Position numbers and translations under genes: made by a program. From positions 216,803-257,105 of the forward strand of contig NZ_HF954559.1 of assembly GCF_000455225.1 (NCBI RefSeq): 40,303 nucleotides of DNA. Reading direction: 5' to 3'. The notes beneath the pieces are model-generated. The model searched no databases, had not been told where the DNA came from, and was given only the letters and a program-made list of their open reading frames with translations. This DNA is from Megasphaera massiliensis. GTDB lineage: Bacteria; Bacillota; Negativicutes; Veillonellales; Megasphaeraceae. Below, one piece after another: positions 6,632-9,695 of this stretch; position 1 is the stretch's first letter; each line of letters opens with the position of its first letter.

Positions 6632-6708
6632 GGCCCCGTGGTGTAGCGGTTTAACATGTCGCCCTGTCACGGCGAAGATCGTCAGTTCAAATCTGATCGG
6701 GGTCGCCA
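6632..6708 (+). tRNA. tRNA-Asp (anticodon GTC), copy 1
   Basis: 77 bases including an encoded CCA. The acceptor stem GGCCCCG/CGGGGTC closes with one G-T pair; the anticodon GTC is at 6666-6668 in the loop of a GCCCT/ACGGC arm. Identical to the copy at 6926-7002. Confidence 0.97.
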
Positions 6709-6716
6709 TTTTTTTT

Positions 6717-6792
6717 GCTCAGGTAGCTCAGTCGGTAGAGCAGGGGACTGAAAATCCCCGTGTCGGCGGTTCAATTCCGTCCCTGAGCACCA
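6717..6792 (+). tRNA. tRNA-Phe (anticodon GAA)
   Basis: 76 bases with encoded CCA. Acceptor GCTCAGG/CCTGAGC is fully paired; anticodon GAA at 6750-6752. Confidence 0.97.
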
Positions 6793-6807
6793 ACAATATC
6801 ATGTCAT

Positions 6808-6893
6808 GCGGTTGTGGCGGAATGGCAGACGCGCTACTTTGAGGGGGTAGTGAGCGTAAGCTCATGGGGGTTCAAGTCCCCCCAACCGCACCA
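6808..6893 (+). tRNA. tRNA-Leu (anticodon GAG), copy 1
   Basis: 86-base class II tRNA with encoded CCA. Acceptor GCGGTTG/CAACCGC; anticodon loop TTGAGGG with GAG at 6841-6843; long variable arm TGAGC-GTAA-GCTCA. Confidence 0.96.
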
Positions 6894-6895
6894 TA

Positions 6896-6912
6896 GCTTC
6901 TCGGTGAGAAGC
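6896..6912 (+). other. perfect hairpin in the tRNA operon spacer
   Basis: GCTTCTC (6896-6902) pairs perfectly with GAGAAGC (6906-6912) around a 3-base loop. No U-tract follows, so a processing or spacer structure is more likely than a terminator. Confidence 0.5.
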
Positions 6913-6925
6913 AGCGAATAGAAAC

Positions 6926-7002
6926 GGCCCCGTGGTGTAGCGGTTTAACATGTCGCCCTGTCACGGCGAAGATCGTCAGTTCAAATCTGATCGGGGTCGC
7001 CA
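6926..7002 (+). tRNA. tRNA-Asp (anticodon GTC), copy 2
   Basis: Base-for-base identical to the copy at 6632-6708, also preceded by AAAC. Anticodon at 6960-6962; CCA encoded. Confidence 0.97.
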
Positions 7003-7024
7003 TATTCTTTTTTTAATTTTATAT

Positions 7025-7110
7025 GCGGTTGTGGCGGAATGGCAGACGCGCTACTTTGAGGGGGTAGTGAACGAAAGTTCATGGGGGTTCAAGTCCCCCC
7101 AACCGCACCA
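7025..7110 (+). tRNA. tRNA-Leu (anticodon GAG), copy 2
   Basis: Same as copy 1 except in the variable arm, which is TGAAC-GAAA-GTTCA: a compensating G-C to A-T change plus a loop change. Anticodon 7058-7060; CCA encoded. Confidence 0.96.
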
Positions 7111-7115
7111 CCTGA

Positions 7116-7149
7116 ACGGTCCTACCGCTATGCGGCAGGACCGTTTTTT
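7116..7149 (+). terminator. intrinsic terminator of the tRNA operon
   Basis: ACGGTCCT (7116-7123) pairs with AGGACCGT (7137-7144), with an inner CCGC/GCGG stem, followed by T residues. Strong. The next gene starts only 36 bases later. Confidence 0.93.
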
Positions 7150-7185
7150 ATAGGCATGAATCCACTCCGAACGGAGGAAATACGC

Positions 7186-8103
7186 ATGGATAAGGAACAC
7201 GTTTTTTTTGAGAACTATGCTAAACACTGGGACCGTGACCGGAAAGAGAATCGGACCATTTTGTCGGAATTTTTAAGGCTGATGGCGCTTGAAACAGGGG
7301 CGGCCGTCCTCGATGCCGGCTGCGGAACCGGCGTCCTCCTGCCCTATTTGGCCGAGGCCGTCGGTGCTGACGGGGCGGTAGAGGGCTTCGATTACTCCCA
7401 GCAGATGATCGATGTCGCTAAGGATAAATTTGCCTCCTGGGCGAACGTTACTTTTACGACGGGGGACGTCCTTAAATACCACTTTGAGGCCCGTCGCTAC
7501 GATGCCGTCTGCTGCCTTAATTTCTACCCACACATCGCCGACCACAGCCGCGACGTCATCCGCCGCCTGTACGATGCCGTCGCTCCGGGCGGGATGCTGG
7601 TCATCATGCATGATATGTCCCGCAAGGCCGTCAATGCCATTCACGGCGGGGCACCGATCCTGCCGCCCGTCGATATCCTGGGGGAAAAACTGATCAGTGC
7701 CGGATTTTCAGTTACCGTCGCCATGGATACGGAGTCGTTTTATTTCATCAAAGCCGTCAAGGACGCCGATGCCGACGATTTTGTTTACGACGAGGACGTC
7801 TCTCCTGTGCCCATTGCCGATCATGGGAGGGGGCACCATCATCACCATGCCGAAACGAAGCGCGTCATGAACCGCTTGTCGCGCATCAGCGGCCATATCG
7901 AAGCCATTAAGCGCATGGTCGAAGAGGAACGGGACTGCAGCGACGTCTTAGTTCAGCTGGCAGCTGTCCATTCGGCCATTGCCGGTGTAAGTCGGGTCAT
8001 CTTGAAGGACCATATCGATCACTGTATCGTCGATGCCATCCGTGACGATGATGAAGCTGCTGTAGAAAAACTGAAGAAGGCTATTAATACCTTTGTAAAG
8101 TAA
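7186..8103 (+). CDS. SAM-dependent methyltransferase fused to a CsoR/FrmR-type metal-sensing repressor
   Basis: 305-residue two-domain protein. Residues about 10-190 are a class I SAM methyltransferase: motif I VLDAGCGTG at 41-49, an acidic motif near GFDYS 67-71, and the post-motif PGGMLVIMHD near 134-143. Residues 191-225 are an acidic, then histidine-rich linker (five His at 217-221). Residues about 226-305 are a complete CsoR/RcnR/FrmR (DUF156) four-helix repressor. Cys251, His276 and Cys280 reproduce the C-x24-H-x3-C spacing of copper-type CsoR. Start ATG has GGAGGAAA upstream; the 36 bases after the tRNA terminator leave little room for a promoter. I infer metal-responsive control coupled to methylation of an unknown substrate. 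The fusion is continuous with no frameshift between the domains. Confidence 0.88.
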   Translation: MDKEHVFFENYAKHWDRDRKENRTILSEFLRLMALETGAAVLDAGCGTGVLLPYLAEAVGADGAVEGFDYSQQMIDVAKDKFASWANVTFTTGDVLKYHFEARRYDAVCCLNFYPHIADHSRDVIRRLYDAVAPGGMLVIMHDMSRKAVNAIHGGAPILPPVDILGEKLISAGFSVTVAMDTESFYFIKAVKDADADDFVYDEDVSPVPIADHGRGHHHHHAETKRVMNRLSRISGHIEAIKRMVEEERDCSDVLVQLAAVHSAIAGVSRVILKDHIDHCIVDAIRDDDEAAVEKLKKAINTFVK

Positions 8104-8112: not shown

Positions 8113-8144
8113 GAACTTATCCATTGTGAAAGGGTGTGACTGCC

Positions 8145-8891
8145 ATGCAGTTTCGGGTATTAAACGGTGATATATCGGAATGGAATACCGACGGAATCGT
8201 ATATTCTGCCAGTTCAACCCTGTTGCCGACAAGTCCCGTCAGCCGCAAGATTCATCAAAGAGGGGGCATTTCTTTTTCGGCCTATTGCCGTCATATCGGC
8301 ATGTGTCACGTCGGCCATGCCGTCATGACCAAGGGCTGCCAATTAAAAGCCGCTTTTGTCATCCATGCCGTAGGGCCTTATTGGGCCGGCGGCAAACGGG
8401 GAGAGGAAGAGACCCTCTTATCGGCCTGCCGAGAGGTCTTGCAGTTGGCCAGGGAAAAGAAGCTGAAAGAGCTGGCCTTGGCACCGCTCAGCTCAGCCGA
8501 TAAAGGCTATCCTCTCCAGCGGGCGGCGGCGGCCGTCGTTCCCTTGCTGCTCACGGAAGGCGGCGATTTTGACCGATTGGATATCGTCTGCGCCGATGAT
8601 GCGGAACAGGCAGCCTATACGAAATCGGCGGTGTTCTTTTGGCTCCATCAATTGCGGGAGGCCTCGGAAAGTGCACGCAGAGGGCTGGCGGCGAAGATCG
8701 GTACGGCTTTGGCCTTGCTGCCCTGTCGTGAAGGAACACCGGATCCGATCGTTCTGGCCGGGAAGGTGAAGGCTGTAGAAGCCATCATCCAGCCTTTTTT
8801 ACAATTGACGAGGCCCAGCCTGGCCGATGTCGAGCAGACGGCCTTACAGATTCGAGCCTTATACTCAGACAAACAAGAGAAAGGGGAGTAG
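8145..8891 (+). CDS. macro-domain protein with degenerate ADP-ribose-binding loops
   Basis: 248 residues. Residues about 1-170 align to the macro (Appr-1''-p processing) fold: NGDIS near the start, TKGCQLKAAFVIHAVGPYW, AGGKRGEEE, and SSADKGYPL before RAAA. The usual catalytic/binding loop (NAAN followed by GGGGVD) is replaced by SASST and PTSPVS, so the catalytic Asn and the glycine loop are missing; a pseudo-enzyme, or a reader of another ligand, is likely. Residues about 170-248 are a helical tail I do not recognise. ATG 8145 has GAAAGGG 10 bases upstream; an in-frame GTG at 8136 is less well placed. The CpXC gene follows after 3 bases, so the two are co-transcribed. Confidence 0.78.
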   Translation: MQFRVLNGDISEWNTDGIVYSASSTLLPTSPVSRKIHQRGGISFSAYCRHIGMCHVGHAVMTKGCQLKAAFVIHAVGPYWAGGKRGEEETLLSACREVLQLAREKKLKELALAPLSSADKGYPLQRAAAAVVPLLLTEGGDFDRLDIVCADDAEQAAYTKSAVFFWLHQLREASESARRGLAAKIGTALALLPCREGTPDPIVLAGKVKAVEAIIQPFLQLTRPSLADVEQTALQIRALYSDKQEKGE

Positions 8892-8894
8892 CCC

Positions 8895-9695
8895 ATGGCC
8901 TCGACCATAGGAACCCATGAAATGGACGCTTCCATCCAGTGTCCGGCATGCCGGGCGTCCGGGGTATTCCATACTTGGGATATCATTGACGCCGGTGATG
9001 TGTCCCTGAAGGACCGCGTTCTTTTTGATGAGAATTTATTTTTTTATACCTGTCCTCACTGCCAAAGTAAGATCCATATTGAAAGCAAGTGCCTTTATAT
9101 CGACAGGGACAAGAAACTGCTGATATGGCACATTCCTGACCCTAAGGAAACAGTTACCCTCGGCGAAGTTCAAGGTGCTTTGGGGACGACGTCCTTGGCA
9201 GCATACACCTGCCGGGCTGCCCTGACCTGGGGAGAATGGCGGGAGAAAATCATCGAATGCGAAAGCGCCTACGACGATCGGTTGTATGAAATCATTAAAT
9301 ATGGGGCTTATCAGCTGCTCAGCAAAGAGGATAAAGAGCGGCTTCCCTTAGAGGCATATCATCTCGATTATGCTGACGACGGCCATGATCCGGAACGCTT
9401 AGCCCTTGTTTTTATGAAGAAAGATGAAAAGGGAATGGCCTATGTTTATCCCATTACAGAGAAGCTGAAAGAAGTGACCCGAGACATTTTCATGCCGATC
9501 ATCGATCAGCTTTCCCGTGAGAAACAGGCGACCTTTGAACGTTTCGGGTATGCCTGGGCCAGCCAGTTCATGACGTATCTCATCAAGGCTGCGGAAGCCG
9601 ATGCCAATCGGGATACCTACGGTAACCTCATTGGATTCTGGATAAAAACAATCGGCGAGGAAATCTTCCAAACGGTGGTAAAACCGCAGGCCTAG
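8895..9695 (+). CDS. CpXC-domain zinc-ribbon protein
   Basis: 266-residue cytosolic protein. Residues about 13-130 match the CpXC domain: CPAC at 16-19, the F-x-W pattern, then LFFYTCPHC with Cys53 and Cys56, consistent with a four-cysteine zinc site. The C-terminal half (about 130-266) is helical and charged, without a family I can name. The function of CpXC proteins is unknown. Start ATG 8895 has AAAGGGGAG 6 bases upstream, overlapping the end of the macro gene; the tight spacing argues for a functional pair. Confidence 0.82.
   Translation: MASTIGTHEMDASIQCPACRASGVFHTWDIIDAGDVSLKDRVLFDENLFFYTCPHCQSKIHIESKCLYIDRDKKLLIWHIPDPKETVTLGEVQGALGTTSLAAYTCRAALTWGEWREKIIECESAYDDRLYEIIKYGAYQLLSKEDKERLPLEAYHLDYADDGHDPERLALVFMKKDEKGMAYVYPITEKLKEVTRDIFMPIIDQLSREKQATFERFGYAWASQFMTYLIKAAEADANRDTYGNLIGFWIKTIGEEIFQTVVKPQA

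Follow-up and report, generated by a model that had tools for sequence, protein, structure and literature searches.

Sensors of the CsoR family are mainly familiar as free-standing proteins that repress metal efflux. A gene in Megasphaera massiliensis raises the question of what such a sensor does when it forms one polypeptide with a methyltransferase (MT), which metal it responds to and which genes it might control. The gene lies on a stretch of 40,303 nucleotides, all of which was analysed and which is called the window in the following. It consists of a single uninterrupted frame of 305 aa at 7186-8103 (+), in which a class I SAM methyltransferase is followed by a complete CsoR-type domain. 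The features of this locus are:

6632-7110 (+): five tRNA genes (Asp, Phe, Leu, Asp, Leu), 5' of the fusion gene
7114-7146 (+): terminator-like hairpin in the gap between tRNA-Leu and the fusion gene (fold of -22.6 kcal/mol, z -5.6, then a U run)
7173-7177 (+): Shine-Dalgarno-like GGAGG, 9-13 nt 5' of ATG 7186 (read in sequence)
7186-8103 (+): fusion gene, MT - His-rich arm - CsoR/DUF156 domain (translation; Pfam; conservation)
7186-7761 (+): methyltransferase part, aa 1-192, with SAM motif I at aa 41-49 (Pfam; modelled fold; Foldseek)
7834-7848 (+): five-His run, aa 217-221, the N-terminal metal arm of the sensor (HMMER alignment; relatives; PMC7055735)
7855-8088 (+): CsoR/DUF156 domain, aa 224-301 (PF02583, E 6.4e-28)
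7936-7938 (+): Cys251 codon, metal ligand W (invariant in 13 fused and 77 free relatives)
8011-8013 (+): His276 codon, metal ligand X (invariant in the same relatives)
8023-8025 (+): Cys280 codon, metal ligand Y (invariant in the same relatives)

An earlier note on this DNA had described the uninterrupted frame of an MT and a complete CsoR-family domain, and translation and Pfam bear this out; both domains look intact. Methyltransf_25 matches aa 41-136 (E 1e-20), and Trns_repr_metal/DUF156 spans the whole sensor domain with 97 bits against a cutoff of 22.8. SAM motif I (VLDAGCGTG) and the five His are present where the note had placed them, and Cys251, His276 and Cys280 follow each other in CsoR spacing, 25 and 4 residues apart. 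A longer ORF from 7081 starts within the tRNA-Leu gene, and ATG 7186 has the GGAGG in front. 3' of the fusion gene, a macro-domain gene (251 aa) and a CpXC gene (window 8136-9695) are found in most species of the genus and show no clear link to metals.

A frameshift between the domains, or homologues that are always encoded as two genes, had been named as grounds for abandoning the fusion. Neither is the case: the same uninterrupted frame occurs in 15 genomes, which rules out a frameshift, a misassembly or a sequencing artefact. The proposed search for this architecture in the Negativicutes was successful, with fusions of 49-96% identity in 11 of 15 Megasphaera species and, in a class-wide search, in four further genomes (G158, G188, G227, G292) from two other families. 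Outside the genus, a 398-genome sample of the phylum contained no fusion at E 1e-35, and none was recognised beyond the Negativicutes by a pattern-based contig search, which distant fusions can escape. The fused MT halves form one clade (support 100/98), and so do the fused CsoR halves (100/98), with three free rows inside, including the CsoR of the sister genus. Since each half forms one clade, the trees point to a single old fusion event as the simplest reading. No report of an MT-CsoR fusion was found in the literature searched, most subscription papers being outside its scope.

The best solved relative of the CsoR half is InrS (5fmn, E 3e-20), with the copper CsoRs ranking behind. InrS binds Ni(II) via His21, Cys53, His78 and Cys82 (PMC7055735). 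The corresponding Cys-His-Cys set is invariant in all fused and free relatives aligned, as is R230. H221 was paired with His21 of InrS by HMMER across a gap of two residues; the pairing is approximate, because InrS is shifted by two residues in the MAFFT alignment. At the H221 position, 12 of the 13 fused relatives and 74 of the 77 free ones have a His, and the fused domain exhibits the InrS-type ligand set of arm His and Cys-His-Cys. Because H221 pairs with His21 and the free relatives share the arm His, we regard the His run as the N-terminal metal arm of the sensor and not as the mere linker for which it had been taken. The AlphaFold2 monomer model has low confidence for the sensor helices.

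The gene neighbourhoods of both halves point to nickel and cobalt uptake. At five loci (L157-L160, L170) the fusion adjoins a Nik-type ABC operon, and three of these (L158, L159, L170) also carry a second MT, MT15. The binding protein of the fusion-adjacent Nik operon is nearest to Opp5A_nikA among the NCBIfam models (E 4e-112, below the cutoff of that model) and also nearest to solved nickel-binding proteins. Close free CsoRs adjoin nik genes at seven loci (L056, L077, L080, L081, L083, L182, L196) and CbiM at three (L059, L066, L078). Free MTs are typically located in operons of the order TonB receptor - ECF S component - MT. In Acetobacterium (L080), one cluster comprises ECF S, MT, MT15, CsoR and nikBCA; in view of such clusters, the fusion joins two proteins that can elsewhere be neighbours. 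At about eleven loci of Clostridia MAGs (L057, L061, L062, L063, L073-L076, L079, L084, L091), an EamA/DMT-like transporter (cluster c14) directly follows a close free CsoR. It is possibly an exporter of Ni/Co or of a chelator.

In other genomes, intergenic DNA next to nik or cbiM was found to share a 20-bp pseudopalindrome, TATCCCC-N6-GGCTTRY, from which the motif was built. When the own genome of 2.7 Mb was searched by pattern (RYAWSCC-N6-GGGGATA), only three exact copies were found, all on contigs other than that of the window: the divergent MT15/nikB promoter (C3) holds two of them, and the third precedes cbiMQO (C6). The nikA homologue of the C3 operon was found independently of the motif. 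5' of cbiM, G000, G010 and G013 have an exact copy of the motif, G002 and G012 one with a single mismatch, and G003 and G007 one whose spacer is shorter by one nucleotide; the distant CbiM-like gene of G014, a genome without the fusion, has no copy in front. In four genomes (G001, G158, G188, G292) the motif separates the nik operon from the fusion gene or from the cluster of that gene. No copy occurs within 600 nt 5' of the fusion gene in Megasphaera, and none anywhere in the window. Upstream of the nik locus (L220:880-4635, G000:C3), we observe repeated 'VSVPLRGFWYAD' translations and a masked stretch that resemble a CRISPR array.

In the loci examined, 32 of 54 motif sites are followed by a co-oriented nik, cbi, ECF_S or MT15 gene; the 54 sites come from chosen loci and are no random sample, and the sites that define the motif partly shaped its orientation and strictness. 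In 19 of these 32, a -10-like box starts 19-20 nt past the motif, so that the GGCTTRY half overlaps the -35 region. By position, hypAB (L302) and the cobaltochelatase CbiK (L290) are further predicted targets, and a MATE exporter with nikBC is also preceded by the motif (L291, L292, L294). As for the free-MT operons in general, the motif was found in G292 only (L288), where it precedes ECF_S-TonB receptor-MT-ExbB with a free member of the same MT family. The earlier note had called partner and operator unknown; this is now replaced by a prediction from the sequence, a specific putative operator motif before nik and cbi genes.

Three of the loci deserve a separate description. In G234 (C19, L302:4995-6487), the motif is followed by a short HMA-like ORF and then by hypA and hypB, which encode hydrogenase nickel chaperones. 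In G240 (C27, L290:6048-8392), both a MATE exporter-nikBC operon and a gene for a CbiK-type cobaltochelatase have motif copies nearby. The epsilonproteobacterium Helicobacter mesocricetorum (L066) has a Clostridia-type CsoR and the same motif before cbiMQO, which suggests horizontal transfer.

The motif also follows the regulator across genomes. Among 300 genomes of the class, it occurs in 69 of 127 with a CsoR and in 26 of 173 without (p 6e-13); the reversed control pattern shows no association in the same genomes (p 0.16). For the close, nickel-type CsoRs alone the numbers are 47 of 92 versus 48 of 208 (p 3e-6). Symmetric ATATCCCCC-GGGGGATA sites account for part of the weaker-CsoR signal; they immediately precede other CsoR genes, where ordinary CsoR operators would be expected. 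The reversed pattern occurs eight times in the whole genome of G007 and five times in that of G003, where it is probably a repeat element. Within the genus, presence of the fusion tracks nickel/cobalt importers. A NikA-like protein or CbiM is encoded in each of the 11 species with the fusion; among the four species without it, two of which have assemblies less than 90% complete, three lack both NikA and CbiM and one has only a CbiM-like gene of 35% identity without the motif. NikR, searched by its NikR_C domain (PF08753), is found in none of the 15 genus genomes, while control genomes were positive as expected. A link between CsoR and cbiM was not recognised in titles and abstracts of the literature, a scope that subscription papers mostly fall outside.

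For the MT half, the features of a class I SAM-dependent enzyme, a Rossmann-like fold and a GxGxG motif I, were found by Pfam, model and Foldseek alike. The AlphaFold2 model exhibits a confident class I fold (pLDDT of about 90), and Foldseek relates it to many class I small-molecule MTs at about 20% identity without singling out a specific substrate. Fused and free MTs (METHYLTRANSFERASE) have SAM motif I and C110, N112, P115, H116, H142, D143, R146, N150 and Y186 in common. The motif is kept in 42 sequences, and together with the family signature CxNx(Y/F)PH...MHDxxRxxVN it is equally well kept in fused and free forms. Since both share these residues, the MT half looks alive and is apparently an active enzyme. 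Arsenic methylation was considered and rejected: for the arsenite methyltransferase ArsM, the score is 43 bits, far below the NF008823 cutoff of 263. A metallophore-like uptake route, in which the MT would act on a metal chelator or ligand, is suggested by what surrounds one Ni/Co regulon: MATE exporters, a TonB receptor, an ECF S component and MTs of two families.

On these grounds, we consider it probable that the fusion combines an InrS-like, Ni/Co-responsive DNA-binding half, which sets nik and cbi uptake via the motif, with an enzyme of the same uptake pathway. We infer that the motif is bound by the fused domain itself, with Ni(II)/Co(II) as the effector. The CsoR half, responsive to nickel and/or cobalt, would bind the G-tract pseudopalindrome TATCCCC-N6-GGCTTRY, a predicted operator whose position coincides in part with the -35 region in front of nikBCDEA, cbiMQO and a few further Ni/Co genes. 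Placed there, the fused protein may adjust nik and cbi transcription, and hence metal uptake, to cellular Ni/Co. The MT half is assigned to this pathway because its free relatives sit in TonB receptor - ECF S - MT operons, one of them behind the motif; it would be an apparently catalytic small-molecule methyltransferase, perhaps metallophore-related. The fusion would therefore couple the protein that governs Ni/Co uptake to an enzyme from the same pathway.

The sign of this regulation deserves attention. A protein bound at the predicted site would cover the -35 box, which suggests repression. Those nickel sensors of the CsoR/RcnR family that have been characterised release DNA upon metal binding (PMC7055735), which is the wrong sign for a repressor of importers, as import would rise when metal is plentiful. 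InrS is reported to bind 5' of the nik import operon, besides regulating the efflux gene nrsD, and to enhance nik expression (PMC7055735). A way out would be that the metal-free form activates, as for InrS at nik, or that this branch has inverted allostery.

Other readings of the fusion have to be weighed against this one. The sensor might perceive nickel only to switch the MT, while another protein, e.g. a stand-alone CsoR, binds the nik/cbi motif. In the window the fusion gene is indeed unlinked to nik or cbi and has no motif of its own, and the own genome encodes a second CsoR. This CsoR, however, lies directly before a CopA-type ATPase, is devoid of the arm His and is likely the copper sensor of the genome; a CopA-type gene region of the same kind also exists in G005, a genome without fusion, NikA and CbiM. 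Together with the invariant R230 in fused and free forms and the four genomes in which the motif separates the nik operon from the fusion gene or its cluster, this makes the reading unlikely. The CsoR-CopA pair also speaks against a copper sensor with an MT for a thiol or metalloid, a reading along the lines of the earlier note that we regard as very improbable. The Cys-His-Cys triad is the Cu(I) site of CsoR too, and InrS can bind Cu(I) in vitro (PMC7055735). Yet the loci examined around the fused proteins and their close free relatives showed no recognisable copper gene, and the fused protein shows no gene or operator linkage to copper efflux (copA/copZ) as a copper CsoR does. Predicted targets are nik, cbi, hypAB and cbiK, and with InrS-type ligands, nickel/cobalt neighbours and a separate CsoR at the CopA-type ATPase, copper is the less supported metal.

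A system for cobalt and corrinoids instead of nickel, with cbiMQO, CbiK and the TonB receptor devoted to making or importing B12 and a corrinoid as substrate of the MT, finds some backing in the CbiM of the own genome, which scores above the cutoff of the cobalt transporter CbiM model, and in CbiK as a predicted target in G240. It is no likelier than the mere switching of the MT, in view of the NikA-type binding proteins and hypAB among the predicted targets and of a TonB receptor that stays far below the BtuB cutoffs. Control by a cobalamin riboswitch is also rejected: none was found at the TonB-ECF-MT operons scanned, the only one detected being situated about 2.4 kb past an MT gene. Other systems are known in which enzyme domains were recruited as sensors, and fused to a regulator the MT half could likewise have lost its catalytic role and serve as a SAM- or ligand-binding regulatory domain. 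We give this slightly less credit still, as SAM motif and family signature are as well kept in the fused as in the free forms.

In comparison with known systems, InrS of Synechocystis shares fold family, Cys-His-Cys and N-terminal arm His with the fused domain. InrS is a stand-alone repressor of an efflux gene, whereas here the sensor is MT-fused and its predicted targets are mainly importers. The copper CsoRs of M. tuberculosis (2hh7) and S. lividans (4adz) have the same DUF156 fold and C-x24-H-x3-C spacing, and their operator type is a G-tract pseudopalindrome (PMC3902906). Binding of such a sequence as a tetramer is characteristic of the CsoR/RcnR family, and a motif that fits is present at the targets predicted here. 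Unlike the copper CsoRs, the fused domain has an arm His, nik/cbi neighbours and an asymmetric GGCTTRY half-site in its predicted operator. RcnR of E. coli belongs to the same family and senses Ni/Co, but it controls the exporter rcnA and has a His in place of Cys280; its G-tract operator reads TACT-G6-N-AGTA (PMC7055735). The predicted task, control of nikABCDE-type importers, is shared with NikR, which is of an unrelated family and absent from the genus. UbiE and other small-molecule class I MTs (3dtn, 3dh0, RebM) have the fold and SAM motif of the MT half at about 20% identity, whereas the fused MT has a signature of its own.

More speculatively, and with considerable doubt, Negativicutes and many Clostridia could have a CsoR-family protein as master regulator of Ni/Co import, in a fixed arrangement of operator and promoter and possibly with inverted allostery. 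In one lineage this regulator would have been fused to an MT of a metallophore-like pathway, whose ligand, SAM state or activity feeds back on uptake. A branch of the CsoR family that apparently governs import through a sharply defined promoter motif would provide a plausible nickel regulator for anaerobes without NikR. The natural fusion marks an uncharacterised methyltransferase family as a part of nickel/cobalt acquisition, and it opens both the substrate of this MT and a possible coupling of methylation to metal sensing to direct tests.
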